Positions 3,383 through 24,206 of a stretch of DNA of 64,000 bases are shown here, piece after piece. The DNA lies in NCBI GenBank assembly GCA_018266735.1, contig JAFDZT010000004.1, positions 654,094 to 718,093 of the forward strand, written 5' to 3'. The translations under genes were made by a program, and so were the position numbers. Origin of the DNA: Bacteroidota bacterium (GTDB lineage Bacteria; Bacteroidota; Ignavibacteria; Kapaibacteriales; Kapaibacteriaceae). The notes under the pieces are model-generated. The model was given only the letters and a program-made list of their open reading frames with translations, was not told where the DNA came from and did no database searches. Within the stretch, counting starts at the first letter, position 1. Each line of letters begins with the position of its first letter.

Positions 3383-5902
3383 TTAGTTGATGGTGTACGA
3401 AGCGCTCAGGTAGGCGAGACGTGGGATGTTCGAACCGCCATAGATCTCGTAGTGACGGAAGTCGAAGACGTTGGTGATGGCGAGGCCGACGTGGAGATCG
3501 TCCATCACCTGGAGTCCGGCGTTGAGGTTGAACACGTTATAGGTTGGCACATAGCCCTTGAAGTCGCCGGCCAACCAGTTGAAGCCATCCACCCAGCGCC
3601 ACATCACCGATACGTCCCACGAGCCCGGCACGGCATACGATGCACCGATGTTCACGCGGTTAGGAGAAGTGTTCGGCGATAGAAGCATATCACCCGATTG
3701 CAGGAATGGATTCGTGGTCTTTGCATCGATGAGATTGGCGTGATAGTAGGCGTAGTTCGCATTGACCTTCAAACGCTCACTGACAAGGAACTCGGCACCG
3801 ATCTCCACTCCGTATTGCTCGACAAGACCAAGGTTGGTGTTCGACACAATGAAGGCCGCATTGTTGTTGTACGTGGTGAAGCGCGCTCGGTCTTGTTCTT
3901 GCAGGGCCTTGTAGACCATGGAGTCGACGAGTCCTTGATACTGCTTGAGGTTGTCCGGTAGTCGCGAGTTCGAATTCCACGTAGTGTAGTTCGCATTCAC
4001 ACCGGGCAAGAAGCCCGAGATGAAGTTGCGCATTCGGTTGTAATAAGCGTCCACGGTCAAGAAGAGCTTCGTGCCGATCACACCTTTATAACCGAACTCA
4101 TAGCCGATGTTCTCTTCCACGTTGAGGTCTGGATTCCCAACACCAAGAGCGATCGGCTGGATGGCCTGCGGATTCGTCGGTGATGTGATGGTGGTGTCGT
4201 ACAGACCAAGGTCGACGTTCTGCGACGTGCCTGTGAGCTTCGACAGTGTGTCGTTCACACTTGCCTGCACCGGACGGAAGTTGACCGGACGTCCTTGCGC
4301 CGTGAGCGCCGGACGGAATCCGTACCGACGGTACAACTCCGAGAAGTTGGCGCGCTGGAAGGAACGTCCCGCCGTAACACGGAACTGCTGTCCGGCAATG
4401 GGCGAGAAGACCACGGCAAGACGTGGCGAGAACTGCTGCGGATAGATACTTGCATTGTCGTAGCGAGCCGATCCAACGAACGACCACTGATCTGATGGCT
4501 TGAATTGAAGTTGTCCGTACACACCACCAATGTTGGCCGTGATCGGATCGTTCGGATAGAACACCGTTCCGTTGGAACCAATGGACATGTGTTGCAACTG
4601 CGTACCAAGCGTATAGGTGATGGTCTCGCCCGCCGTGTTGTTGTACTGCGCATCAAGATCCACATCATACGAATCGTCAAGGATGATGGTGCCCGGAGGG
4701 GCGGCAAGGATGCGCATGGTGTCGATCGTGCGACGTGCGTTGTAGACCGTCTGCACGTGGAAGTGCGTGTCGTGATAGGCTAGTCGTGCAAACGGTTTCT
4801 CGGATTTCGGAACGTGGATACGACCCGATCCCGCCAGCATGATCTCGTTTCCGAATTGCGAATAGCCGAACTCTCCGAGGATCGTTTGGGTTGGACTCAA
4901 ACTGTAGTCCATACGCACGGTACCATACGTTGCAAAGGTCTCGCGATCTTCCGCCGTGATCTTGTTCAACTCGCGTGCTGCCGGCCACAACGATGGATAC
5001 TCGGCCACCATCGATGCACTGTCCGTGCGGTTCTGTGCAAGGTTGAGCGATTGGGAGTGACCGAAGGTGACCTTATACGCAAGGTCACCCAAGACACCTG
5101 CATGACGTGCATCGGCGCGGAAGGTCTTGTAGTCACCACCAAGCAACGTGACCTTTGTTCCCTGCGATTCGCGTGGCGACAGCGTGGTCATGTTCAACAC
5201 ACCGTTGAAGGCGTTGGCGCCATACAGTGCTGCGGCCGGACCTCGAACAAGTTCGATACTGGCGAACTCATCGAGCGGCATGGCGAAGGAGTTCCATTCC
5301 GTTGCGCCGATCTGTTGCAGCGACACATCACGTCCGTCAACCAACACGAGCAACCGTCGATTCGTGCTGTTGTTGAATCCGCGCGTGTTCACGTTGAAGT
5401 CCGTAGCACCGTTCTGCACAACGTCCACTCCCGTCATCCCTTCAAGCGCTCGACCGAGCTGATTGCCGCGCGAGGCGCGCTGGATCTCGATCGGCGTCAT
5501 CACGGTAACGGCTGCCGGTGTTTCGGTGACCTTCTCGGCACGCTTGCTAGCACCGTAGACCACCACAGCATCGAACGTGTTCTCGGTGATGGCCATGTCG
5601 ACGTTCACCGTCACTGGATCTGTGCCATTGGTCTTCACACTGATCGTGGTATCACGCAGTGCCACACTGTGCAATGAGATCGCATGCGTTCCTGCATCGA
5701 TGCCCTTGAGCGTGAACTGACCTTTGCCATTCGTAAAGGCCACCTTCTTCGTTGCGGAATCAAGCACACGCACACCTCGTGCAGGCTCCTTCCCTTCTCC
5801 AAAACGGATCGTTCCGGTGATCACTCCATCCGACGCCAACAACGGCGTTGCGAATGCAAGTGCGCACAGGCCCCCCAACCCAAGTCGTACGACATGGTTC
5901 AT
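3383..5902 (-). CDS. TonB-dependent outer-membrane receptor
   Basis: 839 residues: signal peptide, a carboxypeptidase-regulatory-like domain (about 30-110), a plug domain (about 120-235, with RRLLVLVDGRDV and VRGPAAALYGANAFNGV), then a beta-barrel ending in the aromatic-rich strand SASYTIN. It would import a scarce ligand across the outer membrane using TonB energy. The ligand is not evident; no SusD partner is present. Start ATG 5902 is preceded by GGAG at 6 bases, whereas an in-frame TTG at 5914 has no such support. It is the last gene of a run MFS, CMD, CMD, CMD, receptor, 35 bases after the third CMD gene, and ends at a hairpin terminator. Confidence 0.9.
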   Translation of the reverse strand: MNHVVRLGLGGLCALAFATPLLASDGVITGTIRFGEGKEPARGVRVLDSATKKVAFTNGKGQFTLKGIDAGTHAISLHSVALRDTTISVKTNGTDPVTVNVDMAITENTFDAVVVYGASKRAEKVTETPAAVTVMTPIEIQRASRGNQLGRALEGMTGVDVVQNGATDFNVNTRGFNNSTNRRLLVLVDGRDVSLQQIGATEWNSFAMPLDEFASIELVRGPAAALYGANAFNGVLNMTTLSPRESQGTKVTLLGGDYKTFRADARHAGVLGDLAYKVTFGHSQSLNLAQNRTDSASMVAEYPSLWPAARELNKITAEDRETFATYGTVRMDYSLSPTQTILGEFGYSQFGNEIMLAGSGRIHVPKSEKPFARLAYHDTHFHVQTVYNARRTIDTMRILAAPPGTIILDDSYDVDLDAQYNNTAGETITYTLGTQLQHMSIGSNGTVFYPNDPITANIGGVYGQLQFKPSDQWSFVGSARYDNASIYPQQFSPRLAVVFSPIAGQQFRVTAGRSFQRANFSELYRRYGFRPALTAQGRPVNFRPVQASVNDTLSKLTGTSQNVDLGLYDTTITSPTNPQAIQPIALGVGNPDLNVEENIGYEFGYKGVIGTKLFLTVDAYYNRMRNFISGFLPGVNANYTTWNSNSRLPDNLKQYQGLVDSMVYKALQEQDRARFTTYNNNAAFIVSNTNLGLVEQYGVEIGAEFLVSERLKVNANYAYYHANLIDAKTTNPFLQSGDMLLSPNTSPNRVNIGASYAVPGSWDVSVMWRWVDGFNWLAGDFKGYVPTYNVFNLNAGLQVMDDLHVGLAITNVFDFRHYEIYGGSNIPRLAYLSASYTIN

Positions 5903-5937
5903 GAACATCTCCAATGGTTACCAACAATGAGAGTGAA

Positions 5938-6489
5938 TTACGTGATGCCGACGCGATACCCCTGTGCTGCTCGACGTGCCCCCAGTTCATCGTACACGGC
6001 GGGATCATCCGGAGTGTACGTTGCCAGACCATCGACATAGCGATTGAACATGCAGAATGATGCGCCGATAAGAATGGCGTCGTGGATCTCGAGATCAGTT
6101 GCACCAACAGACCGTGCATGCGCAACGGCCTCGGGCGTTACTTCCTTGCCGCCTTTCCGCACTTGCAGTGCCAAGACGAGCAGGGCATTGAGTTTGTCAG
6201 AAACAGGAGCATGCAGTGGATCTCGGAGCACCGACTCAACAAGATCTCGAGCGCCTTCAACTGCATGGAGTTGGTGAACGGCGATCGACGCATGGATGGT
6301 CGAACAATACACACATTCGTTCGCCCGCGACACTGCGGCTCCTATCATTTCTCGCTCACCGGCAGAGAGCGTATGCTCGTCGTGCAACAACACACTTACC
6401 AGCTCATTCATGTGCTGTGCCGTGTCGGGCCGATACAACATCGGTCCACGAATGCCCGGCACGCCTTCGGGAAGATCAATGTGAGGCAT
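5938..6489 (-). CDS. carboxymuconolactone decarboxylase/AhpD-like protein (copy 3)
   Basis: 183 residues of the peroxidase-related CMD/AhpD fold, with the redox signature CVYCSTIH (CxxCxxxH) preceded by the acidic helix LSAGEREMIGAAVSRANE and followed by FNRYVDGLA. AhpD-like proteins use the CxxC pair for peroxide or thiol chemistry. ATG 6489 was chosen by alignment with its two paralogues and an AAGGGA site 7 bases upstream. It overlaps the end of copy 2 by 14 bases. The real substrate is unknown. Confidence 0.85.
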   Translation of the reverse strand: MPHIDLPEGVPGIRGPMLYRPDTAQHMNELVSVLLHDEHTLSAGEREMIGAAVSRANECVYCSTIHASIAVHQLHAVEGARDLVESVLRDPLHAPVSDKLNALLVLALQVRKGGKEVTPEAVAHARSVGATDLEIHDAILIGASFCMFNRYVDGLATYTPDDPAVYDELGARRAAQGYRVGIT

Positions 6490-7030
6490 TGGGAAGTCCC
6501 TTTCGCTCATAGCCATTCGTGGTAAGTCGATCGGCCAGTTTCTCGTAGTAGTCCATGCTCGGCGGATAGTCGGATGCAAGTCCATCAACGTATCGATTGT
6601 ACAAACAGAAGAGCGATGCGATGAGCACCGTGTCGTGGATCTCCACGTCGGTGGCACCGGCCTTGCGTGCCGCTACCACCATGTCCGCTGTGATGCCTTG
6701 CACATTGCGTTGCAGTGCACGCGCCATGATCAGAAGATGACGGACCTTGTCGGAGACGGGCGCCGTGGTCGGATCCCACACAATGGCATCCACTTCGTCG
6801 CGCGTCCATCCGTACCGTGCCGCTGTTGCAGCATGCGCATTCGTGCAGAACGTGCAGGCGTTGCCCGCGGAGACGATCGTGGCGATCAGCTCACGCTCTC
6901 CCTCGGTGAGCGTGTTGGGTCCACGCAAGATGAACTGCGTGAGATCGCGGATCGGCGCCGACGTGTCGAGTCGTGATTCCAACAATCCGGTGATGCCCGG
7001 CAGTCCCGACGGAACAGTGATGTGTGCCAT
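6476..7030 (-). CDS. carboxymuconolactone decarboxylase/AhpD-like protein (copy 2)
   Basis: 184 residues, same fold: LTEGERELIATIVSAGN, then CTFCTNAH (CxxCxxxH), the GATDVEIHDTVLIA helix and YNRYVDGLAS. Start ATG 7030 lies two bases after the end of copy 1, and its 3' end overlaps copy 3, so the three are certainly co-translated. Divergence among the copies is large enough for an old duplication with possibly different substrates. Confidence 0.85.
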   Translation of the reverse strand: MAHITVPSGLPGITGLLESRLDTSAPIRDLTQFILRGPNTLTEGERELIATIVSAGNACTFCTNAHAATAARYGWTRDEVDAIVWDPTTAPVSDKVRHLLIMARALQRNVQGITADMVVAARKAGATDVEIHDTVLIASLFCLYNRYVDGLASDYPPSMDYYEKLADRLTTNGYERKGLPNASH

Positions 7031-7032
7031 GA

Positions 7033-7566
7033 TCAGCCTCCGTACCCTTGCTCGGCCATGCGCTTGCCCATGGGCACGTATGCTTCCGGATCAGTAGGGG
7101 TCAGGGCGGCAAGGCCATCCACATATCGGTTGTACATGCAGAAGGCCGCCGCGATGAGCACCGTATCGTGAATGTCGCGATCGACGGCACCCGCATCACG
7201 CGCCGCTTGCACGTCGGCATCGGTGACGATCCGTCCACCTTGCCGAACCTTCTCGGCAATGGGAAGCAACGCACGCATCTTGGCGGACAGACGGTCGGTG
7301 TTGTTGTGATAGACCACATCGTCCACGATGGATGCATCGGCACCGTATTGATGGCGCGCCGCGGCGGCATGACTCATCGTGCAGAACGTGCACTTGTTGC
7401 CATGCGACACGAAGGTGGCAAGCAACTCGCGCTCGGCCTTGGTCAGTGGACTCTCTCCATGCAACAGCGCATGGGCCAGTCGACTGAGTGGTGCCCCGGT
7501 CTCGGGTCGGTAGTTGAACAGACTTCGAATGCCTGGTGTTGCGGGATCGACGGGAATGTGGGCCAT
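7033..7566 (-). CDS. carboxymuconolactone decarboxylase/AhpD-like protein (copy 1)
   Basis: 177 residues, first of the three tandem paralogues. LTKAERELLATFVSHGN is followed by CTFCTMSH (CxxCxxxH) and YNRYVDGLAAL. All three keep both cysteines and the histidine, so a redox role is plausible. It follows the MFS gene by 20 bases. Likely cytoplasmic: no signal peptide. Confidence 0.85.
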   Translation of the reverse strand: MAHIPVDPATPGIRSLFNYRPETGAPLSRLAHALLHGESPLTKAERELLATFVSHGNKCTFCTMSHAAAARHQYGADASIVDDVVYHNNTDRLSAKMRALLPIAEKVRQGGRIVTDADVQAARDAGAVDRDIHDTVLIAAAFCMYNRYVDGLAALTPTDPEAYVPMGKRMAEQGYGG

Positions 7567-7586: not shown

Positions 7587-8804
7587 TTATGTGAGAACGG
7601 GTGTCGAGAGAGGTTTCGGTTCATGCGCAAAGCGCGTCACCACAAGGCCGACGAGCAATGGCAGTGTGAAGACGAGCAGCGCTTCGCGGTATCCGCCAAA
7701 GGCGGCCACGAGCACGCCGATGTTGAGCACTGCACCGGCCGTGAGAATGCGCCCGATGTTGAAGCAGATACCCACCGACGTCGCACGAATGTGATGCGCA
7801 AAGAGCTCAGGGATGTACAAGGCCATCAGTCCTTGCGCCATGCCGAAGAAGATGGCGAGCACGGCAATGCTCACCGTCATCATCGTTGCCGAGGGGACAT
7901 CGGTGGTGTATAACGGAAGACTTGCGATGATGGCGCCGACGTAACACACGACGATGGTGCGCACACGACCGATGCGCATGGCAAGCGGACCCGAGAGCAA
8001 GCTCCCCACAATGCCACCCAAGCCGAGAGCGATCATGATCTTTCCACGCAGTCCCATACCGCCGTCCACGCCCGGATGCAAGGCCGTTGCCCAGCTGGGA
8101 AGCCATGAGAAGGCAGCCCACAGACAGATGAGGATGCAACCAAAGAGCGTTGAACCGATGATGAGCTCGCGACGTTGCGTTCGAAGGTCACGCACAAGCG
8201 CACCAAACGACGGCTCGACATCGGCATCAAGACGTGCCGCAACAGATCTCTTACCGGCGAGCATGAAGAGCGGCACGAGCACGACGGAGCCGGTGATCGC
8301 ATATGCAACGGTTTGCCATTCCGCGATCTTGGTCTGCGCGATACCGGTGGCAATGATGCCAACAGCATACGAGTTCGCAAGCACTCCCATGAGCCATGGT
8401 CGCCGCGCGTCGGAGAGCACCTCGGCCGCAAGAGTTGTCGACAACACCATCACGGATCCGACTCCGATGCCTGTGATGAAGCGAAGTGCATAGGCGAGCA
8501 TCGCAGTTGTGACCGACGGCAACAAGGCAGTGGCCACGCAAGCAAGGAGCAGACTCGCTGCCAGCGTGATGGATCGCCCGCGTCGGTCAGCAACGGCACC
8601 AAGGAGAATGCCTCCTGTAACCCAACCGAGAAGAAATGCGGCTTGCAGGAAAGAGCCTACGTGTCCGACCGTGGCCACATCTGTCGTGCCGGTGTATGTT
8701 TGCACGACCGACGGGAGGTACAACGGCACGAGCGTGGCAACGCTTCCGGAGGCAAGTCCGGATAGCCAGCAGAGCACAAAGATCGATGTCGGGCGTTTGA
8801 ACAT
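7587..8804 (-). CDS. MFS transporter (first of two paralogues)
   Basis: 405 residues with about 12 hydrophobic segments. The loop 2-3 motif GAVADRRGRS near residue 70 is the MFS signature. The sequence resembles the aromatic-acid/metabolite porter branch. It is clearly paralogous to the MFS protein at 13264-14475 (shared patterns around LYLPS and GSF..AAFL.GW..GGI). First gene of the operon with three CMD proteins and a TonB receptor, so it may move the receptor's ligand, or a product of it, across the inner membrane (inference). Confidence 0.85.
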   Translation of the reverse strand: MFKRPTSIFVLCWLSGLASGSVATLVPLYLPSVVQTYTGTTDVATVGHVGSFLQAAFLLGWVTGGILLGAVADRRGRSITLAASLLLACVATALLPSVTTAMLAYALRFITGIGVGSVMVLSTTLAAEVLSDARRPWLMGVLANSYAVGIIATGIAQTKIAEWQTVAYAITGSVVLVPLFMLAGKRSVAARLDADVEPSFGALVRDLRTQRRELIIGSTLFGCILICLWAAFSWLPSWATALHPGVDGGMGLRGKIMIALGLGGIVGSLLSGPLAMRIGRVRTIVVCYVGAIIASLPLYTTDVPSATMMTVSIAVLAIFFGMAQGLMALYIPELFAHHIRATSVGICFNIGRILTAGAVLNIGVLVAAFGGYREALLVFTLPLLVGLVVTRFAHEPKPLSTPVLT

Positions 8805-8855
8805 GGGGTCAATATGTGCGCTAGTTCGTGTCGTTCACAAGCATTCAACGTCCAT

Positions 8856-8898
8856 AGGGAACATTGATCTCTTCCTTCTTTTGTGATCTATGTTCCCT
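8856..8898. promoter_or_regulatory. 14-bp inverted repeat between divergent genes
   Basis: Arms AGGGAACATTGATC (8856-8869) and GATCTATGTTCCCT (8885-8898) match at 13 of 14 positions with a 15-base pyrimidine-rich spacer. It lies between the divergent MFS and lipoprotein genes and could be an operator for either, or a leader hairpin of the plus-strand gene. Confidence 0.5.
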
Positions 8899-8918
8899 CA
8901 TTTCAGCGAGGTGCAGCA

Positions 8919-9608
8919 ATGAGTCCTACGTCCTTCATTCGTCGCGGTAGGTTGATCGTCGCGCAGGTTGCCCTGCTCTTCGCGTGCGGCTGTTCTCTCG
9001 AGCCTGAGAAGAGCTGCAGCAGGGAACCGGATCTGCACCGTGCACTGATCCTGACCCTGCCGGACAGTGTGGCCGTGCAGAATGTGCCGATCATCGTGGA
9101 TAGCAATGCCGAGTACTGCAAGTTCATGATCCGGACCTCGGCGTTCGACCGAATGCTCGCGACACTCGATCCAACCAATGTTATCGCTGGTCGCGCATCG
9201 GTCTACAACCTGTATCTGTATACCACCGGATCTGTCGCAACAACCTCGACGATCGCAGCGGAGGACGTTGTGGGACTCACGGTGTACTATCTCAACTTCG
9301 AGGATGAGTCGTTACGTGTGCGAACGTACGTCCGCAGCAGCACTCGGCCCGGACTGGATCCGATCCTGGCGCTTGACAGTGACGTTGATGGCTGGACGAC
9401 CAACTGCATCGAGTCCATACGCGCATCCGTTCTTCCTATCCATGGATTCACCGGGAGATCGGTCCTCCACATCTATCATACCGATGCCGTCACAAAGGTC
9501 GAACAGGATATCGACCGGTTCAAGCACCTCAATTACGGTGTGAGCAATGAATTCACTCGGCACATCGAGCGCTACATTGAATCGAAGACCGGCACGACTC
9601 CACGATAA
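8919..9608 (+). CDS. uncharacterised lipoprotein
   Basis: 229 residues. The signal peptide ends in a cysteine-rich lipobox (LFACGCSLEP), followed by CSREPDLHRALILTLPDSV. No family recognised. There are two further cysteines in the mature part (EYCKF, TNCIES). ATG 8919 has a weak GAGG upstream. Single gene, facing away from the MFS operon and converging on the luciferase-like gene, so no neighbour explains it. Confidence 0.75.
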   Translation: MSPTSFIRRGRLIVAQVALLFACGCSLEPEKSCSREPDLHRALILTLPDSVAVQNVPIIVDSNAEYCKFMIRTSAFDRMLATLDPTNVIAGRASVYNLYLYTTGSVATTSTIAAEDVVGLTVYYLNFEDESLRVRTYVRSSTRPGLDPILALDSDVDGWTTNCIESIRASVLPIHGFTGRSVLHIYHTDAVTKVEQDIDRFKHLNYGVSNEFTRHIERYIESKTGTTPR

Positions 9609-9643
9609 CAACGGCAGTGCATGTCGTCAGTGCGACGGCGGCG

Positions 9644-10618
9644 TTACGCACCCAGCAGCTCATAGCTCCGCAATCGGTCTGCGTGGTGCTCGGTGATGGT
9701 GACCACGGCGATCTCCTGCGTAGCATAGGTTTTTGCGAGATGTTCGAGTTGCTGACGGGCCGACGTGCCGTCGCCGTAGATCACGCTCCGTCGGCGCATC
9801 TCCACGATCCCCTGCTCAAAGACGGTTGGCGTGATAGTTAATCTATCAATGCTCGATGGGAAACGGACGTTCTTGGCACGCAGGAACGACTGCACGAACC
9901 ACGCCTCGGTGCAGGCCGCAATGGCGCGTGCATCGCGCTCTGTCTCTGCGGCGAAGGCCACGGTGGCGATCATGGTGGTGGGTTCGGAGCACCAGGCGGA
10001 GGGGACGAAGTCGCCCCAATAGATCCGAAACGCCTCTGCCATATTCGTCGGGTCGATAAAGGATCCGAAGGCATACCGCAGACCCAGACGTGCGGCCATG
10101 CGGGCACTGTCGGCACTCGTGCCAAGGATCCACACATCGGGCGCCGTCACGCCATCGGGTACGGCCACCACGTCGGATGTGGGCGTGGGCACATGCAGGT
10201 CGGCAAGGTAGGCAAGGATGGAACGCACCTTCGCCTCGGTGTCGATGTTCGTCTCGCTGCGCAACGCACGCGTCACCACGGGATCGCCACCCGGGGCGCG
10301 TCCCAGACCCAGATCGATCCGACCCGGAAAGAACGCCTCCATGGACCGTGCTACCTCGGCAACCTTCAACGGTGCATAGTGCGGAGCGAGAATGCCACCG
10401 GATCCGATGCGGATGCGCTCTGTGGCCGACGCGAGACGCGTCATCACGATCTCGGGCGAGGCCGATGCGAACGAGGCACCACCATGATGCTCTGCCACCC
10501 AATAGCGATGATAACCCCAGGCATCGGCATGCCGAGCAAGGTCGACGGTGTTGTGAAGGGCTTGCGAGGCCGTGATACCCGCAACAACGGGTGACTGGTC
10601 GAGAATGGAGAGCTTCAT
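9644..10618 (-). CDS. LLM-class flavin-dependent oxidoreductase (luciferase-like, MsnO8-type)
   Basis: 324 residues of the bacterial luciferase-like monooxygenase fold. It begins KLSILDQSPV and has YWVAEHH at about 41-47 and the FMN-site region RIRIGSGGILAPHYAPLKVAE near 90, then the family's late GRAPGGDP segment. Such enzymes oxidise varied substrates with FMNH2 and O2; the substrate is unknown. ATG 10618 was chosen over an in-frame TTG at 10627. Six bases upstream lies a TATCTTTG promoter element, so the message is probably leaderless. Divergent from the chaperone gene. Confidence 0.85.
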   Translation of the reverse strand: MKLSILDQSPVVAGITASQALHNTVDLARHADAWGYHRYWVAEHHGGASFASASPEIVMTRLASATERIRIGSGGILAPHYAPLKVAEVARSMEAFFPGRIDLGLGRAPGGDPVVTRALRSETNIDTEAKVRSILAYLADLHVPTPTSDVVAVPDGVTAPDVWILGTSADSARMAARLGLRYAFGSFIDPTNMAEAFRIYWGDFVPSAWCSEPTTMIATVAFAAETERDARAIAACTEAWFVQSFLRAKNVRFPSSIDRLTITPTVFEQGIVEMRRRSVIYGDGTSARQQLEHLAKTYATQEIAVVTITEHHADRLRSYELLGA

Positions 10619-12711: not shown

Positions 12712-13313
12712 TGCTCACGATCCTTGACTTTGGTGCGGTGTTGTACAACATCGACTTCGACCGGACGCGACAAGCCCTACGCGCATTGCCCGGATACAAT
12801 GGTGTGCCGATCGACTTTGGTGTGGACGTGCAGTCCGATGTCTTTCACGACATCGACAAGGGGGCCATCTCGGAAGCGGCCTTTCGCGCAGAGCTCCGTC
12901 GCATCTGGGGTTTTCAGTGCACCGATGCAGAGCTCGATGCCGCATGGTGCGCCATTCTCATTGGCATGTTCCCCACGTCAACCGACGTGGTGCGGAATTT
13001 CGCAGCTCGCGGACCCGTTGTGTTGCTCAGCAACATCAGCTCATTGCATCTCCGTCATGCACTTCCCGAATGCAACGAGATGCTCTCGTTCTTCACCAAG
13101 AGGTTCTACTCCTTCGAGATCGGCTTGCGTAAGCCCGACCCTGCCGCCTTTCTCCATGTCTGCTCTGTGATGGGCGTTGCACCGCACGAAGCAACGCTCT
13201 ACGACGATTCGTTGGCGAACTGCGAACAAGCGGCGGCCATGGGGATGCACGTGGTGCGCGTGCTCACACCGGAAGTTCTTGTCCCTTTGTCTCTCGGGCA
13301 AACATCAGCGTGA
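12711..13313 (+). CDS. HAD-family hydrolase
   Basis: 200 residues with the HAD motifs in order: nucleophile region LDFGAVLYNID (Asp6), motif II LLSNIS near 102-106, motif III Lys in LRKPDP near 139, and motif IV YDDSLAN near 160-166. A small phosphatase of the HAD-IA group; the substrate is unknown. Translationally coupled to the chaperone gene by one base. Its last 50 bases overlap the 3' end of the convergent MFS gene. Confidence 0.85.
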   Translation: MLTILDFGAVLYNIDFDRTRQALRALPGYNGVPIDFGVDVQSDVFHDIDKGAISEAAFRAELRRIWGFQCTDAELDAAWCAILIGMFPTSTDVVRNFAARGPVVLLSNISSLHLRHALPECNEMLSFFTKRFYSFEIGLRKPDPAAFLHVCSVMGVAPHEATLYDDSLANCEQAAAMGMHVVRVLTPEVLVPLSLGQTSA

Positions 13314-14475
13314 TCAGGCCGATGCCATAGGCACCAGCGAACACGGCCATGGCATTGTTGTATCCGCCAAGCATGGGCACGAGCACACCAACATAGAAGA
13401 CCGTGACCGTCGTGAGGATCCGCCCTGCATTGAAGCACACACCTGTTGCCGTGCTGCGGATGAGCGTCGGGAACAGCTCCGGAATGTAGGCACTGAGCAC
13501 ACCCTGATTGAAGCCGATGCACAGCGAGAGCAGAAACGTACATGCGAAGAGCAGCGGACCGACACCGTTGAGCACAAAGAACAGAATGCACGACACCATG
13601 ATGACGGCCGCATAGCCAAGCGCCGCAGCCCGTCGGCGTCCCATGGCATTCGACACCGCACCCGAGATCGTCCCACCCACCACGGCACCAATGCCGAGCA
13701 TGATCACCGTGCGTGCACGATGCGCTTGTTGATCGGCCGCAGCGCTCATGCTGCTCACCCACGTGGGCATCCACGTATAGGCGGCCCACAACCCAACGAG
13801 CATGCTTCCGAACAACACCAGTCCGATCACCAGATCTCGACGGTAGCGAGCATCGAACAGCGACTCGCGTTGCAGGTGTTTCTCTGCATGCACCGTGGTG
13901 CTCTTCACGAACAGATCGCTCTCTTGCACCATGAGCAACACACCAATGGCCAGTAGGATCGTTGACGATCCCAACAGATAGGCCGTTCGGAAGTCGGCAA
14001 TGAAGTTGTGAATGATCCCCGCCGCAATGAAGCCCACCGGAAATGCATTGATCAGAATGCCCACCAGTCGCGCACGGTTGCCGGCAGACCATGCCTCGGA
14101 GACCATGACGGCCGTGATCATTAGGATGCTGCCTCCACCGATGCCCGTGAGCACCCGACACAACACAAGGAAGGGAAGCGAATCTGCAAAGGAGGTAAGG
14201 AAGACGCCAAGGGCGGCAAAGACCACGCTCCAGAACAACGTCATCTTGCGTCCGATCCGATCCCCCACCAGACCAAGGGCTATGCCGCCGATCGACCACC
14301 CGGCAAGGAAGGCCGCGCCGGCGAACGATCCCACGCGAGCGATCTCGGCCTGATCCGTGGAGTGGAACACATCGCGAACGATGCTGGGCAGATAGACGCT
14401 GAAGAGCGTTGCTCCGATACCGGCACTTGCAGTGGCCAGCCAACTGATCGCATAGAGGGCATGTCGTTGTTGCAT
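13264..14475 (-). CDS. MFS transporter (second of two paralogues)
   Basis: 403 residues with about 12 membrane segments. The signature loop GLVGDRIGRK near residue 72 and the GGSILMITAVMVSEAW helix match the other MFS protein of the window (7587-8804). ATG 14475 is five bases from a TATCTTTG element; longer in-frame starts would lie inside the riboswitch region. It is divergent from the cobalamin-riboswitch gene, from which it is separated by one shared regulatory region. Solute unknown. Its 3' end overlaps the HAD gene by 50 bases. Confidence 0.85.
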   Translation of the reverse strand: MQQRHALYAISWLATASAGIGATLFSVYLPSIVRDVFHSTDQAEIARVGSFAGAAFLAGWSIGGIALGLVGDRIGRKMTLFWSVVFAALGVFLTSFADSLPFLVLCRVLTGIGGGSILMITAVMVSEAWSAGNRARLVGILINAFPVGFIAAGIIHNFIADFRTAYLLGSSTILLAIGVLLMVQESDLFVKSTTVHAEKHLQRESLFDARYRRDLVIGLVLFGSMLVGLWAAYTWMPTWVSSMSAAADQQAHRARTVIMLGIGAVVGGTISGAVSNAMGRRRAAALGYAAVIMVSCILFFVLNGVGPLLFACTFLLSLCIGFNQGVLSAYIPELFPTLIRSTATGVCFNAGRILTTVTVFYVGVLVPMLGGYNNAMAVFAGAYGIGLITLMFARETKGQELPV

Positions 14476-14501: not shown

Positions 14502-14509
14502 TATATTCG
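14502..14509 (+). promoter_or_regulatory. possible -7 element of the riboswitch transcript
   Basis: TATATTCG differs from TAnnTTTG at one position and lies 13 bases before the first riboswitch stem, a sensible start distance. No clear -33 element seen. Confidence 0.4.
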
Positions 14510-14521
14510 CGCCCTACATCG

Positions 14522-14645
14522 GAACACGGTTGCTGCCTCCTTGAGCTCTCGGGGAAGCGGGTGAAAATCCCGCGCGGTTGCGCCACCGTAACGATCACGA
14601 TGCTTGTGAGCATCGCGGATCGAAGCCGGAATACCGACCGTGTTC
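14522..14645 (+). ncRNA. cobalamin riboswitch
   Basis: A closing stem pairs GAACACGGT (14522-14530) with ACCGTGTTC (14637-14645). Inside are the conserved elements GGGAAGCGGGTGAAAATCC (from 14552), GCGCCACCGTAA (14580-14591) and a B12 box AGCCGGAATACCGACC (14624-14639). Downstream, a CTCTG/CAGAG hairpin (14663-14679) directly precedes the AAAGGA ribosome-binding site (14680-14685) of the propeller gene, so control is probably at translation: cobalamin binding lowers expression. Confidence 0.93.
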
Positions 14646-14692
14646 GCCATTTTCATCCACCGCTCTGCGCATCACAGAGAAAGGATCTCGAT

Positions 14693-16000
14693 ATGCACAA
14701 TCGTGCACTCGTTTTCGTCTTCGCTGCCTTCAGCATCCTCGCCACCCTCCCCTCCTTTGGGCAAACGCGAGTCCTCAACACTCCCCTTCAACCGGTCGCT
14801 CTGCATCGCAGTGGCAACACCATCGTTGCGTTGACATCGCGCACGGATGTGGACTTCGACAACACCATCGACTCGGGCGACGTCGCAGCGTCGTTTGTGA
14901 CGTTCGATCTGAACGGCAACGAGATCGGTCGACGTGCCCTCCCCTGGGCCAACGTGAATGCACTGCGCAGTTACGTCGACACGGCCTTCAATGAACTCTA
15001 CGTGATCATCGACGACAGTATCGTGGTCTACGACCTTGCCACTATGGCGCAAGGCAAGACGGTATGGAAAGATGGCGCATCGGCCATCAGCATGACGCAC
15101 GACGCCGAAGTGGCCTTCATCAGCGTCCGTCCGAACTTCACCGATCCCGGCTCCGTGCAAGTGGTGAACACGCTCACATGGAGCGTGGTGCGCATACTGC
15201 CGGCCGGCGTGAATGTACAGATGTCGCAATGGTATCGCACGGCGGCAGGGAAGCAAGGTCTCATCGTTGTCAGCGAAGGGTCCTTCGGAGAAATGAACGG
15301 CACCGTGGATGTATGGGAAGTGAACGATGCCGAGTGGACGAAGCGTGCAACGTTCACGGGTGGTGTGCCCAATCACATTGCCGTCGATGGTGACGTTGCC
15401 TATGTGACGATGAACACGGCACACAAGGTGATCCGCATCGATCTCACCACGGCACAACAAGTGGCCACCTATCCTACCGGGACGACCGGGTTCGATGGTC
15501 CGCGCGAGTCCGTCGTGGCCGGTCCCTTCCTCGTCACGTCCACCTTCACCGGCGATGTGCGCGTGTTCAACATCGAGACCACGGACCGACTGCTCACTGT
15601 TGACGTGGGTGCCAAGCCCGAGGGTCTGCTCTTGAACACCAACGCATCGTCCAACGAAGTGTGGATCACGCGTGCGTTCAAGACCGGTGCGTACGATGCC
15701 GACAGTGGCATCGGCATTTTCAAGACCGTGCTGCCAACGTCCGTGCAGGAAGATCCAACCTCCGTTACGTCGGCACTTGCCGCCCCCAACCCTGCCTCTT
15801 CGCACATCGTGTTCTCGGAAATGCAAACATCCTCGCCAACCTTCCGCCTTACATCCTCCGTGGGCATGCCCATTGCCACGCAAGGACGCATGCTTGCCTT
15901 GCCAAACGGCAGCGTGCTCTTGGATGTAAGCGATCTTGCCGAAGGTGTGTACTGTTGTTCAGACGGACGCACGTCGACGAAGTTTGTAGTACGGCGCTAG
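14693..16000 (+). CDS. cobalamin-regulated, T9SS-exported YncE-like beta-propeller
   Basis: 435 residues: signal peptide (FVFAAFSILATLPSFGQ), a repeat domain of about 340 residues with the alternating strands of a YVTN/YncE-type propeller (for example PNHIAVDGDVAYVTMNTAHKV), and a C-terminal type A sorting domain from about 365 (APNPAS, then LDVSDLAEGVYCC and KFVVRR at the end). The protein should be exported by the type IX system and held at, or released from, the surface. A cobalamin riboswitch stands directly in front. In Bacteroides, BtuG is a surface propeller that captures B12 for BtuB; this may be a T9SS-anchored counterpart (inference). No BtuB or SusD-like gene is adjacent. ATG 14693 has AAAGGA 7 bases upstream. 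Confidence 0.85.
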   Translation: MHNRALVFVFAAFSILATLPSFGQTRVLNTPLQPVALHRSGNTIVALTSRTDVDFDNTIDSGDVAASFVTFDLNGNEIGRRALPWANVNALRSYVDTAFNELYVIIDDSIVVYDLATMAQGKTVWKDGASAISMTHDAEVAFISVRPNFTDPGSVQVVNTLTWSVVRILPAGVNVQMSQWYRTAAGKQGLIVVSEGSFGEMNGTVDVWEVNDAEWTKRATFTGGVPNHIAVDGDVAYVTMNTAHKVIRIDLTTAQQVATYPTGTTGFDGPRESVVAGPFLVTSTFTGDVRVFNIETTDRLLTVDVGAKPEGLLLNTNASSNEVWITRAFKTGAYDADSGIGIFKTVLPTSVQEDPTSVTSALAAPNPASSHIVFSEMQTSSPTFRLTSSVGMPIATQGRMLALPNGSVLLDVSDLAEGVYCCSDGRTSTKFVVRR

Positions 16001-16018
16001 TGGCCTAAGTTGCGCGTT

Positions 16019-19000
16019 ATGCGCACATCCTCTCTCCTCTTCGCTCTTTTCCTTGCCGCCCTCATCGACCATAGCGGCGGGCCACTTCATGCACAGTCGA
16101 TGCGAACACCATCGACGCAGGAACTCGACCATGCACTGCGTGCACAGAAGTTCCGCTGCATCGGTCCGTATCGTGGTGGTCGTTCGCTAGCCGTTGCCGG
16201 ACATCCCGATCTTCCGCACACCTACTACTTTGGCGCAACCGGTGGTGGTGTGTGGAAGAGCGAGGACGATGGTGATTCATGGCGCAGCGTGAGCGACAGT
16301 ACCTTTACATCGTCATCCATTGGCGCCATCACCATTGCGCCGTCCGATCCCAACGTCGTCTACGTGGGCACGGGCGAGACGGACATACGCGGCAACATCT
16401 CTCCCGGCGACGGAATGTATCGCACCACAGATGGTGGTGCCACATGGAACTCGCTCGGACTCAAGAACGCTCGCATGATCGCCGACATCGTCGTGCATCC
16501 CACGGATGCCGACGTGGTGCTTGTCAGCTCGATGGGACACGTCTTCGGTCCGAACCCCGAGCGTGGCATCTTCAAGAGCACGGACGGTGGAAAGTCGTGG
16601 AAGAAGGTCCTGTTCCGCAACGACTCCACCGGTGGCATGACGTTGAAGATGGACCCGCACAATCCGCGCATCCTCTATGCATCACTCTGGCAGGCCTATC
16701 GCAATGCACACAGCATGAGCAGTGGTGGTGCAGGCAGCGGACTGTTCAAGAGCACCGATGGTGGTGATACGTGGAAGGAGATCACGAAGAATCCCGGACT
16801 GCCCACCGGCATTCTTGGCAAGATCTGCGTCGACGTATCCCGCGCCCAACGCGGACTCGTCTTCGCCATGGTCGAGAACGAGAATGGCGGTCTCTTCAAA
16901 AGCAACGATGCAGGGGCAACGTGGACGCGGATGAGCACACAGGCCGACATTCGCACACGTCCCTGGTACTTCTCGCATGTCTACGCCGATCCCTTCGATG
17001 CCTCCATCGTCTACGTGCTGAACGTGGGCATGTACAAAAGCGTCGACGGCGGCGCATCCTTCAGTGGCATGGGCACGAAGCATGGCGATCATCACGACAT
17101 GTGGATCGACCCGAAGAACAACCAGCGCATGATGGTGGCCGATGATGGTGGCGCCGTGGTAAGTGTGGATGGTGGCAGACATTGGACGGAGCAAGACCTT
17201 GCCACCTCGCAGTTCTATCACGTGAGCGTCGACGATCACTTCCCCTACCGTCTCTATGGTGCGCAACAAGACAACAGCACCGTGTCCATTCCGCATCGTG
17301 CCATCGGCGATTGGTCCATCGATCGTTCACGATGGTACTCAGTTGCCGGGTTTGAGAGTGGCTATGTGATCCCGCATCACACCGATGCCAACGTCACCCT
17401 TGGCGGCAACTACTCCGGCTACTTGAGTCGGTACGACCGCAGCAAGGATCAGAACCAGGACATCAGCGTCTATCCCAACAATCCCATCGGCGAGGGATCG
17501 AAGGACCGCGGAGAGCGCTTCCAATGGACGTTCCCCATTCTCTTCTCGAAGCACGACAAGGCGCTCTATACCACATCGCAGCATGTGTGGCGAAGCACGA
17601 ACGAGGGCATGAGCTGGACGAAGATCTCGCCGGACCTTACCACGAACGACACCACGAAGCAGATGGCATCGGGTGGACCGATCACGAAGGACAACACCGG
17701 TGTGGAAGTGTACTGCACCATCTTCACATTGGCAGAGTCGCCCGTGAAGCAAGGTGTGTTCTGGGCCGGCAGCGATGACGGGCTCATTCACGTGAGCACC
17801 GACAACGCAGCCACGTGGAAGAACGTCACGCCCAGCGGCCTTCCCGCCTTCTCGCTTGTGAGCATGATCGAGGCATCGCCGTATGATGCGGGCACGGCCT
17901 ATGCGGCCGTCAATCGTTACAAGCTCGACGATCAGGACGTCTACATCTATAAGACCACGAACTACGGAGCGTCGTGGACGAAGATCACGTCGGGCATTCC
18001 ATCGGGTTCCTTCGCCCGCGTTGTGCGTGAAGATCCTGTGCGCAAGGACCTCTTATATTGCGGCACGGAGCGCGGACTCTACGTCTCCTTTGATGGCGGC
18101 ACGTCGTGGTCGCGCTTCTTGCGCAACCTCCCGCTCACGCCCATTCACGATCTCGTCGTCCACGGTCGCGAGCACGATCTTGTGCTTGCCACACATGGTC
18201 GGTCGTTCTGGATCTTCGACGATCTCACCACACTCCGTCAACTCACACCAAGCGTTCTTGCAACGCCCTTCCACGTCTTCACCCCACGTCATGCCTATCG
18301 TGTCGACGGTGGTTCGTGGTACGCACCAACGATGGACGTCGGCGAGAACGCACCCAATGGTGTGATGCTGCGGTATTGGCTTGCCGACACCACGTCGAAG
18401 GAACTCACGATCACCATTCGCACGCAAAGCGGCGATTCGGTGATCGCGTTCTCGAACAAGAAGGATCGTAAGGGAGAAGAGTTCAAGAACGACCGCAAGT
18501 TCTATCGCGACTCGCTCTTCCGTCCAAGCAGTGAGGCGCTCACGGTGTTCCGCGGACAGAATCAATTCCAGTGGAACATGCGGTGGCCCGATGCCGAAGA
18601 GCTCGAAGGCGTGATGTGGGGCGCCGGCACAACAGGTCCACGCGTTGCTCCGGGAACCTACACGGCCACCTTTACACTTGGCGCCGACACGCAACGCGTC
18701 TCGTTCGAGATCAAGAAGGACCCACGACTTGATGTTGCCGATGCCGACCTCGTTGCACAAGAACGTTTCTTGCGCGACGTCACGCGCACACTGTCCGACG
18801 TGCACAAGGCCATCAAGCGCATGCGCGATGTGCGTGCACAAGTGAATGCGGCTGTTGGTCGCACGTCGCACCTCGACTCGTCGAAGACCAAGGAGATCGC
18901 GGCACTCAGCAAGACCATCAACGACACGCTGCAGCACATCGAAGACAGCATGGTGCAGACCAAGGCCAAGGCAGGTCAGGACCTCTTGAACTATCCTGTG

Positions 19001-19216
19001 AAGCTCAACAACAAGATCGCCTCGCTCAGCGAGGTGGCCTCGTCGGCCGACACACGTCCAACGCAGCAAACGCTCGATCTCTATGCAGAGCTTGCATCGC
19101 AGGCGGCAGCGAAGATCGCAGCGATCAAGAGCATTGAATCCGATCACGTCCGTCGGTTCAACGAACAAATCTCTGCACTCTCCCTCCCGGCCGTCTTGCC
19201 CGAGAAGAAGAAGTGA
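16019..19216 (+). CDS. sortilin/VPS10-type Asp-box propeller protein (annotated glycosyl hydrolase family)
   Basis: 1065 residues: signal peptide ending near HAQ, then two large propellers with about eleven Asp-box (BNR) motifs, for example TTDGGATW, STDGGKSW, STDGGDTW, SVDGGAS and SFDGGTSW. The C-terminal third has an immunoglobulin-like segment (TYTATFTLGADTQRVSFEIKKDPR, about 880-905) and a helical tail ending PEKKK. Members are usually named glycosyl hydrolases, but activity is unproven and no catalytic set is visible. Unlike the previous gene it has no sorting domain, so it may stay periplasmic. ATG 16019 follows the propeller stop by 18 bases. The stop overlaps the next start (GTGA). 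Confidence 0.85.
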   Translation: MRTSSLLFALFLAALIDHSGGPLHAQSMRTPSTQELDHALRAQKFRCIGPYRGGRSLAVAGHPDLPHTYYFGATGGGVWKSEDDGDSWRSVSDSTFTSSSIGAITIAPSDPNVVYVGTGETDIRGNISPGDGMYRTTDGGATWNSLGLKNARMIADIVVHPTDADVVLVSSMGHVFGPNPERGIFKSTDGGKSWKKVLFRNDSTGGMTLKMDPHNPRILYASLWQAYRNAHSMSSGGAGSGLFKSTDGGDTWKEITKNPGLPTGILGKICVDVSRAQRGLVFAMVENENGGLFKSNDAGATWTRMSTQADIRTRPWYFSHVYADPFDASIVYVLNVGMYKSVDGGASFSGMGTKHGDHHDMWIDPKNNQRMMVADDGGAVVSVDGGRHWTEQDLATSQFYHVSVDDHFPYRLYGAQQDNSTVSIPHRAIGDWSIDRSRWYSVAGFESGYVIPHHTDANVTLGGNYSGYLSRYDRSKDQNQDISVYPNNPIGEGSKDRGERFQWTFPILFSKHDKALYTTSQHVWRSTNEGMSWTKISPDLTTNDTTKQMASGGPITKDNTGVEVYCTIFTLAESPVKQGVFWAGSDDGLIHVSTDNAATWKNVTPSGLPAFSLVSMIEASPYDAGTAYAAVNRYKLDDQDVYIYKTTNYGASWTKITSGIPSGSFARVVREDPVRKDLLYCGTERGLYVSFDGGTSWSRFLRNLPLTPIHDLVVHGREHDLVLATHGRSFWIFDDLTTLRQLTPSVLATPFHVFTPRHAYRVDGGSWYAPTMDVGENAPNGVMLRYWLADTTSKELTITIRTQSGDSVIAFSNKKDRKGEEFKNDRKFYRDSLFRPSSEALTVFRGQNQFQWNMRWPDAEELEGVMWGAGTTGPRVAPGTYTATFTLGADTQRVSFEIKKDPRLDVADADLVAQERFLRDVTRTLSDVHKAIKRMRDVRAQVNAAVGRTSHLDSSKTKEIAALSKTINDTLQHIEDSMVQTKAKAGQDLLNYPVKLNNKIASLSEVASSADTRPTQQTLDLYAELASQAAAKIAAIKSIESDHVRRFNEQISALSLPAVLPEKKK

Positions 19217-19821
19217 CGGCCTTCCCGTCAATGCGGCTTTTGTGGCTCCTTGCCGCCTTTCCGCTATGCATCATCGGCTACGCGGCCATCGACCTACCGA
19301 TGGCCGAGTGGCTGCATGCGAACGTGAACGGCAACGTGCACGTGGTGGCCGCATGGCTCGAAGAGATCGGTCGCGGACACTGGTGGCTCGTCCCCTCCCT
19401 CCTCGGCACCATCGTCTTCTGGAAGCGCAACCGTCCACTTGCCATTGCCTGTGCCGTCGTCTTCCTCAGCATTGCCTTGAGCGGCCTTGCGGCCAACCTT
19501 CTCAAGATCATCATCTGTCGTGCGCGTCCCGTGCTCTGGTTCGACGAACATCTTTACGGCTTCCGCCTCTTCGCCTTTGAAACAGACTACGTGTGGAACT
19601 CCTTCCCGAGCGGACATGCCACCACCGGCGCCGCTCTTGCCGTCACCGGCAGGGCGGTATGGCGGAAGGGTGCGTGGCTCTTCACACTTGTCGGCATCTC
19701 CATCGCCATCGCCCGCATCGTCATCACGGCCCACTACTTCTCCGACGTCGTCATTGGTGCCGCGCTCGGAGTGTTGTTTGCGTGGGTAGCGCAGAGGATA
19801 ATGGGGAGGATGAATACATGA
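19213..19821 (+). CDS. PAP2-family membrane phosphatase
   Basis: 202 residues with about six hydrophobic helices and the three PAP2 motifs: KIIICRARP (KX6RP), SFPSGHATTG (PSGH) and ARIVITAHYFSD (SRX5HX3D with Ala in place of Ser). Such enzymes dephosphorylate lipid phosphates, including undecaprenyl pyrophosphate. It starts at GTG 19213, overlapping the stop of the previous gene by three bases, so it is translationally coupled. Substrate not determined. Confidence 0.9.
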   Translation: MTAFPSMRLLWLLAAFPLCIIGYAAIDLPMAEWLHANVNGNVHVVAAWLEEIGRGHWWLVPSLLGTIVFWKRNRPLAIACAVVFLSIALSGLAANLLKIIICRARPVLWFDEHLYGFRLFAFETDYVWNSFPSGHATTGAALAVTGRAVWRKGAWLFTLVGISIAIARIVITAHYFSDVVIGAALGVLFAWVAQRIMGRMNT

Positions 19822-20625: not shown

Positions 20626-20762
20626 ATGCCCGACTTCGTGACCATCGCCACGTATGACGACTACGTCATCGCCAACCTCGAACTCCACTGTTGCAAGCCA
20701 ATGAGGTTCATTCAAAGCGATCGTATCGTTGCTACTTCTGCGCTCATCGCTGGAAGGAATAG
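20626..20762 (+). pseudogene. decayed DUF2007/zinc-ribbon gene (internal deletion)
   Basis: The start MPDFVTIATYDDYVIANLELH matches the first residues of the intact gene at 22377 (MPDLVTIASYNDVISATFDQH). The end, in another frame, reads YRCYFCAHRWKE and stops at 20762, matching the intact C-terminus QCFYCSHRWKA. Roughly 90 central codons are gone and the frame is broken. It precedes a paralogue of the gene that lies two genes after the intact copy, so this is the remnant of a duplicated module. Confidence 0.85.
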
Positions 20763-20797
20763 CGCATATGTTTCGCGCAGCTCGTAAGTTACCTGTG

Positions 20798-21562
20798 ATG
20801 AAGACCCTCCTCACGATCGTACTGGCACTGATGTGCGGATCAACGGCCGCGCACTCACTGTGTTCGGGCGGAGGATTAAGAGTCTTTCCACATGGATCGA
20901 CCATCGGATCCCATCCGATCTTTGTGCTTGAAGGGTATGCGAAAAGTCAGAAAGTGATCACAGGTCTCAACAAAGCGTACTCGATTTACTTGAACAGTGG
21001 CAAGAGCAAAGTCCGATTGATGGTGAGGAACGTGTACATCGGGCAGTACCGATTGACGCAGGCACTGTTGTATCCGGAAGCGGAGTTGGAAGTCGGCCAG
21101 CAATACACATTACAGATCGACAGCCTACCTCATGGTGAACATTTGACTAGATACAACCATGCGAAGGATGAGTATGGGCCGGTCACCTACAACGTCGTGG
21201 CAGCGAACGACGATCAGAGTCCGATTCTTTCTTCCCGGCCGGAGGAGGTGGGGAAGACACTTGAGAATCCTGGCTGCGGTCCAGTGTCGAGCGTAGCATT
21301 CAGCAACCCTGCCATTGACGAGTCCGAGGTCATCGTGATGACAACGGTAAAGAATCTCAGCTCTGGGAAGGAGACGACATATCTCATCTTACCCGACAGC
21401 AATAAGATCCGCGTGGGTCATGGCATGTGTTCCGGTGCGTTCACCTTTGACGATACCCTTGAATACGAAGTAGAGTTCACGTTCATGGATGCGGCAGGGA
21501 ACATCACACCGTGGTCAGGCGAACGCATTCGATTTACGAAGCCGACGAAGGAAACCGAGTAG
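20798..21562 (+). CDS. secreted protein, paralogue A of an unrecognised family
   Basis: 254 residues with signal peptide (LLTIVLALMCGSTAAHS) and a mature part with paired cysteines. No family recognised. It aligns along its whole length with the protein at 23424-24206: FVLEGYAKSQKVITGLNKAY against FVLEGFARSQQVVAGLNKIY, and FMDAAGNITPWSGERI against FMDSAGNVTPWTGARI. Start ATG 20798 fits the signal peptide; ATG 20768 is also in frame. The fold may be beta-sandwich-like from the strand pattern (weak inference). Confidence 0.75.
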   Translation: MKTLLTIVLALMCGSTAAHSLCSGGGLRVFPHGSTIGSHPIFVLEGYAKSQKVITGLNKAYSIYLNSGKSKVRLMVRNVYIGQYRLTQALLYPEAELEVGQQYTLQIDSLPHGEHLTRYNHAKDEYGPVTYNVVAANDDQSPILSSRPEEVGKTLENPGCGPVSSVAFSNPAIDESEVIVMTTVKNLSSGKETTYLILPDSNKIRVGHGMCSGAFTFDDTLEYEVEFTFMDAAGNITPWSGERIRFTKPTKETE

Positions 21563-22791: not shown

Positions 22792-23364
22792 ATGTCGCCT
22801 TTGATACCATCGTTCTTGCCCATAGCATTCGCTCTCATGTTTTTGGTCATGCCCATCCACAGCGATGCCGGTACTCACGACGTTGTTGTGCCAGATTCAA
22901 CCACGGCAGGTCGCAGGGAGAACGTCGAGCACAAAGTCAACGCACCACTAGGCAGTCTGTATGTGGAGATCGGAGGCGCAGGGATCGGTCTTGCTTCATT
23001 TCACGCAGAGGTCACGGCATATCGCTTCTCCCATGTTCGCGATGGACTCGGGTTCAACCACTCCATCCGTTTTTCGGCTGGATATTCGTTGGACAGATCA
23101 GGCTTCCTTTCTGCAGCGGCCACATACCTTGCATTGGAGTCGGACCATCACATCGAAGTTGGTGTAGGTGCAGCCTATCCGATGGTACCACGAGAAGGAA
23201 GTGATGCTCTTCCAAAGGCGTCGACCGTCGGCGTCCTCGTGTTCGGATATCGCTATGAGGTCATTCACAGCATACTGCTTCGTGCCACCATCTCACCTTG
23301 GGTTGATACTAGTACAGGCAATTGGACCATGTATGGCGGCGCTTCCTTTGGAGTGGCGTTCTGA
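22792..23364 (+). CDS. small outer-membrane beta-barrel-like protein
   Basis: 190 residues with signal peptide (LPIAFALMFLVMPIHSDA) followed by alternating amphipathic strands (SLYVEIGGAGIGLASFHAEV, SIRFSAGYSL, HIEVGVGAAYPM, TMYGGASFGVAF) and a terminal Phe, as in small barrels. No family recognised. It starts one base after the DUF2007 stop and is present only in the intact copy of the module. Its own stop overlaps a possible upstream start of the next gene (TGATG at 23362-23366). Confidence 0.65.
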   Translation: MSPLIPSFLPIAFALMFLVMPIHSDAGTHDVVVPDSTTAGRRENVEHKVNAPLGSLYVEIGGAGIGLASFHAEVTAYRFSHVRDGLGFNHSIRFSAGYSLDRSGFLSAAATYLALESDHHIEVGVGAAYPMVPREGSDALPKASTVGVLVFGYRYEVIHSILLRATISPWVDTSTGNWTMYGGASFGVAF

Positions 23365-23423
23365 TGTTCGATCGGATGCATGAAATCGTACATTGCACCA
23401 TGCCCCGCGAGCTACCATCCAGA

Positions 23424-24206
23424 ATGTCCATGCGATCGCTTCTTGCGTTCATGCTCATGTGCTTTTGTGGTTCTACCATACATGCCTTTGCATCGTGTAC
23501 AAGGCCTCCGCTCAGTGTGTTTCCGCATCATCGGAGTATCAGCAGTCGTCCGATGTTCGTGCTTGAGGGCTTCGCGCGAAGTCAACAGGTCGTTGCCGGA
23601 CTCAACAAGATCTATCCGGTGTATCTCGAAGGTGGCGGCGAACGAGTTCCGCTCAGAGTGACCGACATTGTCGTAGGTCGGCACGATCTCATGCAAGCGG
23701 TCCTCGTTCCTACAGCCGAGCTCGTTGTAGGGCGCGACTACGATCTTGTCATCGATGGCCTCCCCGATTCCGTGCGGCATCAGCAATCCGACAGCACGGA
23801 GCATACATGGATCACGGCAACCTACACTGTAATCGAAGGCCGCGACACGCTAAGTCCAACCATAACGGCACGACCGGTGGTCGTCGGAACATCAAATGAA
23901 CTCGCTGGTGGTAGTCCCTCCACTTGGGTGCGGTTCAGCAATACTTCACACGACGAATCCGAGATCATCGTGAAGACAACAGTGAAAAGCCTGCAGACCG
24001 GGAATGTGACCATCTACTATGTTGAACCGAGAGGCGCCACTATTTCTGTTGGTCGAGGCGGATGCGGGGCTGCCTTCACGTTCAGTGAGGGCAACGTTTA
24101 CGAAGTGGAGTTCATCTTCATGGACAGTGCAGGCAACGTCACGCCGTGGACTGGTGCGCGCATTGCGTTCAACGCGCCATTGGAGAACGCAGGTATTGAG
24201 AAATGA
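23424..24206 (+). CDS. secreted protein, paralogue B of an unrecognised family
   Basis: 260 residues with signal peptide (LLAFMLMCFCGSTIHAFA), full-length paralogue of the protein at 20798-21562. Cysteines near the mature N-terminus (ASCTRPP) and in GRGGCGAAF are shared positions. Start ATG 23424 fits the signal peptide; an ATG at 23364 overlapping the previous stop is possible and would add 20 residues. The stop overlaps the next start (ATGA), so it is in an operon with the DinB-like gene. Function unknown. Confidence 0.72.
   Translation: MSMRSLLAFMLMCFCGSTIHAFASCTRPPLSVFPHHRSISSRPMFVLEGFARSQQVVAGLNKIYPVYLEGGGERVPLRVTDIVVGRHDLMQAVLVPTAELVVGRDYDLVIDGLPDSVRHQQSDSTEHTWITATYTVIEGRDTLSPTITARPVVVGTSNELAGGSPSTWVRFSNTSHDESEIIVKTTVKSLQTGNVTIYYVEPRGATISVGRGGCGAAFTFSEGNVYEVEFIFMDSAGNVTPWTGARIAFNAPLENAGIEK

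Follow-up and report, generated by a model that had tools for sequence, protein, structure and literature searches.

The 64,000-nucleotide stretch analyzed here (the window) carries a cobalamin riboswitch directly followed by a gene for an exported β-propeller, and profile comparisons identify this propeller as a circular permutant of the Bacteroides B12-binding protein BtuG, a distinct second family rather than a BtuG with a different anchor. From its sequence and genomic context we consider it likely that the propeller, which ends in a predicted sorting domain of the type IX secretion system (T9SS), is a riboswitch-regulated corrinoid-capture protein additional to BtuB and BtuG. The locus contains the following features.

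14502–14509, + strand: TATATTCG, putative Bacteroidota −7-type promoter element, from sequence
14510–14656, + strand: cobalamin riboswitch aptamer (RF00174), a compact form without the peripheral arms that relatives keep
14576–14584, + strand: L5 segment GGTTGCGCC, whose TGCGC pairs with GCGCA of L13; conserved in 20 relatives
14663–14679, + strand: P13 hairpin CTCTG-CGCATCA-CAGAG, expression platform by fold prediction, with the loop CGCATCA as L13
14680–14685, + strand: AAAGGA, presumed ribosome-binding site (RBS) from sequence, directly 3′ of P13
14693–16000, + strand: gene of the predicted T9SS-exported, circularly permuted BtuG-like propeller (P0001), 435 aa, with ATG at 14693 and stop at 15998–16000
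14693–14761, + strand: signal peptide MHNRALVFVFAAFSILATLPSFG, residues 1–23, without a lipobox cysteine; cleavage site putative
14768–15727, + strand: seven-bladed β-propeller, residues 26–345, in the AlphaFold2 model; blades counted from the strand list
15779–15997, + strand: T9SS type A C-terminal sorting domain (CTD), residues 363–435, with an APNPASS motif, from profile and AlphaFold2 model
13264–14475, − strand: divergent MFS transporter, a neighbor not under the riboswitch

The first-pass annotation had reported a clear B12 riboswitch directly before the propeller, and this agrees with the RF00174 match at 14510–14656, which lies 36 nt upstream of the gene and contains the conserved core. 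At 32.7 bits (E = 1.5e-4 for the window) the match exceeds the gathering threshold of 31.5, and it is the only one in the 3.35-Mb genome. RF00174 matches are present in 136 of the 149 genomes of the class, and the window aptamer has the lowest score of all, the others reaching 35–128 bits. The low score results from its shortness: at 147 nt, in comparison with about 187–246 nt in the family, it is without the long variable arms of its relatives. Other short aptamers, of 131–155 nt, exist among relatives. The ligand preference of cobalamin riboswitches is set by peripheral domains (PMC10907184), and the loss of the variable arms might alter the preferred form of cobalamin.

Translational cobalamin riboswitches hide the RBS through a kissing loop between P5 and P13 (PMC10907184), and sequence comparison indicates that an L5–L13 kissing-loop expression platform is present in the window riboswitch. 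L5 and the P13 loop are almost invariant across 20 relatives while the P13 stem varies with full compensation. Counting the window sequence and the relatives, we found 10 distinct stems, and 40 of 40 pairs were formed in comparison with a mean of 25.5 and a maximum of 38 in shuffles, a test that somewhat overstates the covariation as the stems were selected for being paired; for one relative (L075) a different nearby hairpin was taken as P13 and its stem is less certain. With the kissing pair and the covarying P13 beside the RBS, the riboswitch looks intact. The TATATTCG element recurs immediately before the aptamer in many relatives; as a putative promoter, it would make transcription start where the aptamer begins. 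This promoter-like sequence accounts for the start coordinate of 14502 given in the first-pass annotation; as a gene start, that position was rejected, the ATG being at 14693.

The protein itself had been described as a secreted propeller with a type A sorting domain, and the signal peptide, the modeled propeller and the CTD all bear this out. Read from sequence and model, the Sec signal consists of a hydrophobic helix at residues 5–15 and a cleavage site between SFG and Q; the only cysteines are residues 421 and 422, and with none before 421 there is no lipobox. Searches with Pfam and NCBIfam gave no match over the cut-off. Structure prediction, suggested earlier as a check, was done with AlphaFold2 and 34 orthologs (mean pLDDT 87) and yielded the seven-bladed propeller (about 95), a low-confidence linker at 348–362 and a separate small β-sandwich at approximately 370–433 (about 80); in the model, the domains are arranged as in a T9SS cargo. 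With the public models the type A CTD scores 13 bits, under the Pfam and NCBIfam cut-offs. With a profile built from 20 CTDs of the same genome it reaches 22.7–26 bits in comparison with at most 9.3 for 200 shuffles. Several close relatives score close to background with this profile, and for that reason the prediction of T9SS export is firmest for the window genome and the more distant families. The genome encodes the T9SS machinery component SprA (820 bits) and about 127 CTDs over the cut-off. The propeller is acidic (pI 4.7), which is compatible with the negatively charged binding face of BtuG.

Of the surrounding genes, the divergent MFS transporter had been called a paralog, and it is 36% identical to the MFS gene at 7587–8804, but nothing in it points to a B12 function: we rejected it as a B12 transporter, its best families being aromatic-acid/sialate-type symporters with no B12 link. 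Downstream, a few bases past the propeller gene, come genes for a secreted VPS10/BNR-repeat protein and a PAP2 phosphatase (16010–19821); several relatives have the same arrangement, and these genes may be cotranscribed with the propeller. A few kilobases further is a paralogous pair of secreted proteins of unassigned function (20729–21562 and 23322–24206).

The kinship to BtuG is detectable at family level. A phmmer search with the single propeller protein reached BtuG at an E-value of about 0.04 only; the family profile matched the BtuG structures 8ptd, 8ptf, 8blw, 3dsm and 8bmx with E-values from 1e-22 to 1e-12. The strongest part of the match placed profile positions 180–337 on BtuG 8–175 and a weaker part placed positions 15–182 on BtuG 176–341, a swapped order that is expected from a ring opened elsewhere. 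When the T9SS core was aligned to a doubled BtuG-like profile, one continuous alignment of 251 columns ran over the junction (score 215, E = 4.5e-28), in comparison with 136 columns and a score of 151.6 for the single-copy profile in native order, although the internal repeats of propellers could in part mimic such a signal. When the BtuG profile was rotated stepwise, the T9SS core aligned best, over 288 of 321 columns and with a score of 215.5, to a ring cut near column 170; as a control, BtuG aligned to BtuG best unrotated (score 725). The BtuG-like lipoproteins of the class keep the native BtuG blade order. Landmarks of the junction are contiguous in the T9SS family, where G-x-N-P, from the C terminus of BtuG, leads into EG, from its N terminus. 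The earlier claim of a relationship to BtuG is thus upheld at the level of homology and modified by the permuted order; a Foldseek search with the model did not have BtuG among its top 50 and returned generic propellers only, and is uninformative on BtuG.

The 13 hydrogen bonds of BtuG2 to CNCbl come from blades 1–4 (PMC10404256), and the best-matching portion of the T9SS propeller corresponds to the N-terminal half of BtuG (about 8–175). By eye in the alignments, the T9SS propeller does not strictly keep Trp194, Trp272 and Tyr316, the aromatic residues of the BtuG2 pocket; nor do the class's own BtuG-like lipoproteins keep all of them.

A separate operon of the same genome encodes a BtuB-like receptor (contig C6:808351–810234) that scored 538 bits in a genome profile search, the next best protein reaching 85. 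Its best NCBIfam match is TIGR01779 (TonB-B12), under the cut-off of that model. Downstream of it come a secreted LIC_13355-like protein and then a lipoprotein that has the lipobox FLVSC and the sequence GGVYVVCEGLWRQDNS. Over the whole length of the protein, the family of this lipoprotein matches Bacteroides BtuG (profile 20–365 on chain 22–373 of 8blw, E = 3e-54), which makes it a BtuG-like component. The operon is unlinked to the T9SS propeller. The proposal that T9SS here takes the place of the lipid anchor does not survive this result, nor does it hold in other families, in which both propellers share one operon; as the BtuG-like lipoprotein is retained, the T9SS propeller would be an additional component. 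A TonB receptor within the window (3383–5914) was considered as the missing BtuB and rejected: it carries a CarbopepD_reg_2 domain, and its score of 31 bits falls far short of the 538 of the BtuB-like receptor. Genes for methylmalonyl-CoA mutase, a MeaB-type fusion and MetH are present in the genome, and a search for one marker of corrin synthesis, CbiC, found none. De novo corrin synthesis is then unlikely and, given the mutase and MetH, gene content leads us to expect corrinoid import in this organism.

We compared the places of riboswitches, propellers and BtuB-like receptors in 149 genomes of the class, calling full-length propellers at E-values below 1e-45. Within the same family, 21 of 23 genomes have the propeller protein. 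In each of the 23 class genomes with a full-length propeller, a cobalamin riboswitch of the same orientation directly precedes the propeller, 48–316 nt away when the distance is taken to the profile match. The expected co-occurrence with btuB was found in part: in 10 of these 23 genomes the operon continues with a BtuB-like receptor, but the receptor lies elsewhere in the other 13, which include the window genome and all sampled members of its family. No RF00174 match was found near the unlinked btuB upstream in those 13 genomes, and a permissive scan of the region preceding btuB, done on 12 loci of the family, revealed no hidden riboswitch. Where btuB is elsewhere, the riboswitch thus stays with the propeller. 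The operon of other families of the order consists of the riboswitch, the T9SS propeller (sometimes as a tandem pair), btuB, a secreted LIC_13355-like protein and the lipoprotein propeller, the BtuG-like lipoprotein and the LIC_13355-like protein being part of it in some families.

The relatives show several variations on this arrangement. At L064:8170–10527, L067:5591–8002, L072:5669–7909, L149:5936–8266 and L163:5834–8125, two tandem propellers precede a single C-terminal domain, and these versions may be bivalent binders. At L154:6572–7642, a propeller of the permuted family stands directly before btuB with a lipobox-like signal but without a sorting domain, and the same domain is apparently carried there by a lipid anchor. 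The secreted LIC_13355-like protein (motif FTIFENAF; L113:7471–8352, L065:11659–12552 and L069:1368–2315) lies between btuB and the BtuG-like gene, which in L113 are at 8352–10271 and 6401–7465; in L069 its gene is under a cobalamin riboswitch of its own, together with a DUF6580 protein, and we regard it as a candidate for a further part of B12 uptake. A genome of the same genus (G056) has a second cobalamin riboswitch before the small and then the large subunit of ribonucleotide reductase (L054:7702–11477), which suggests B12 control of a B12-independent isozyme; no such second match was found in the window genome. The riboswitch locus of one relative (G037, L056:1–16001) is closely preceded by a Cas9-like gene (MSTVLGLDIGSNSVGWALVDIENQ).

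A scan of 84,980 species genomes with one peptide pattern, of limited sensitivity, returned 41 loci, their titles being mainly Candidatus Kapaibacterium and Ignavibacteria metagenome-assembled genomes and a few broader or apparently mislabeled ones. Among 396 genomes of the phylum, the full-length family is limited to the order of the window genome and to one other family within its class, and the single match outside the class spans the BtuG-like part only. By these searches the T9SS propeller family appears nearly confined to Kapaibacteria-related bacteria.

The scheme that we propose would work as follows. At low intracellular cobalamin, the leader RNA would leave the RBS free and the propeller would be made. 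Sec would export it, and T9SS would recognize the CTD and place the protein on the cell surface or release it from there. The propeller could bind corrinoids by the face homologous to the B12-binding blades of BtuG and hand them to the BtuB-like receptor or the BtuG-like lipoprotein from the other operon. When plentiful, cobalamin would bind the aptamer, L5 and L13 would kiss and translation would stop. More specifically, the permuted BtuG sent through T9SS may be the B12-regulated uptake step of the lineage, possibly a released or LPS-bound carrier that loads a constitutive BtuB/BtuG; this narrower version we put forward tentatively, finding nearly as much reason to accept it as to doubt it.

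Other explanations fit parts of these data. A plain BtuG in which a T9SS sorting domain has replaced the lipid anchor, and which caps BtuB as BtuG does, would agree with the homology, the propeller fold and the shared operon in 10 of the 23 genomes. We nevertheless think it improbable, as a BtuG-like lipoprotein is retained in the window genome and stands beside the T9SS protein in relatives, and the blade order is permuted in the T9SS propeller but not in the lipoproteins. With its N and C termini thereby moved to a different blade, the T9SS propeller would probably not reproduce the hinge geometry of the BtuG lid. The lack of conservation of the BtuG2 aromatics and the versatility of propellers could also speak for a secreted protein of unrelated function (an adhesin, an enzyme or a binder of another ligand) that is B12-regulated by chance; the specific relationship to BtuG and the location of the gene, in several families, between the riboswitch and btuB argue against this, and we consider such a coincidence improbable.

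The propeller has no lipid or other membrane anchor, and it might be a soluble corrinoid scavenger (a "B12-phore") released to the medium, the loaded form of which is recaptured by BtuB/BtuG, rather than a protein fixed to the surface. T9SS is able to release cargo as well as to attach it, and the tandem two-propeller versions of other families would suit a soluble multivalent binder. Type A CTD cargo, on the other hand, is usually attached to surface LPS in the species studied, and the anchored family member at L154 points to the usefulness of cell attachment; we see a released scavenger as a real but unlikely option. Finally, the class-lowest score and the loss of the peripheral arms from a 147-nt aptamer could indicate that the riboswitch of this species is a decaying, nonfunctional remnant. 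Against this, the core, P1, L5 and P13 are kept with perfect pairing and aptamers of similar length occur in other relatives, and we give decay little credence. An additional, riboswitch-regulated capture protein is the reading that we prefer.

If it is true, the propeller would be, as far as the searched papers show, the first component of B12 uptake to use the type IX system; we found no description of a T9SS-exported B12 binder or of a permuted B12 propeller in the open-licence literature. A propeller for vitamin binding would then have been adapted by circular permutation to another way of export. The persistence of the riboswitch beside the accessory binder where btuB is elsewhere suggests that capture, and not the transporter, is the controlled step. 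The strategy known from BtuG of gut Bacteroides would also be at work in environmental bacteria related to Kapaibacteria, for which dependence on imported corrinoids is probable.

In comparison with BtuG, a surface lipoprotein propeller of Bacteroides (DUF5074/YncE-like; 3DSM, 8BMX, 8BLW and 8PTD), the T9SS propeller shares the seven blades, detectable homology, control by a cobalamin riboswitch and, in relatives of the window genome, the operon with btuB. It differs in having a signal without a lipobox and a T9SS CTD where BtuG has a lipid anchor, in a circularly permuted blade order that makes its sequence collinear with BtuG only after permutation, and in coexisting with a BtuG-like lipoprotein. 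BtuB (TIGR01779), the presumed partner receptor with one copy per genome in this bacterial family, is a TonB-dependent barrel and not a propeller, and is here unlinked and without a detectable riboswitch. The window RNA has the aptamer core and the L5–L13 kissing-loop translational platform of the RF00174 cobalamin riboswitches but is compact, lacking their peripheral arms. The closest parallels in role are the accessory B12-binding surface lipoproteins BtuH and BtuJ/DUF4465 (PMC8941943, PMC13398666 and PMC12751083), for which the papers searched do not mention T9SS: like them, the propeller is proposed as an additional riboswitch-controlled B12 binder beside BtuB/BtuG, whereas they have other folds (a β-jelly roll in DUF4465) and lipid anchors.
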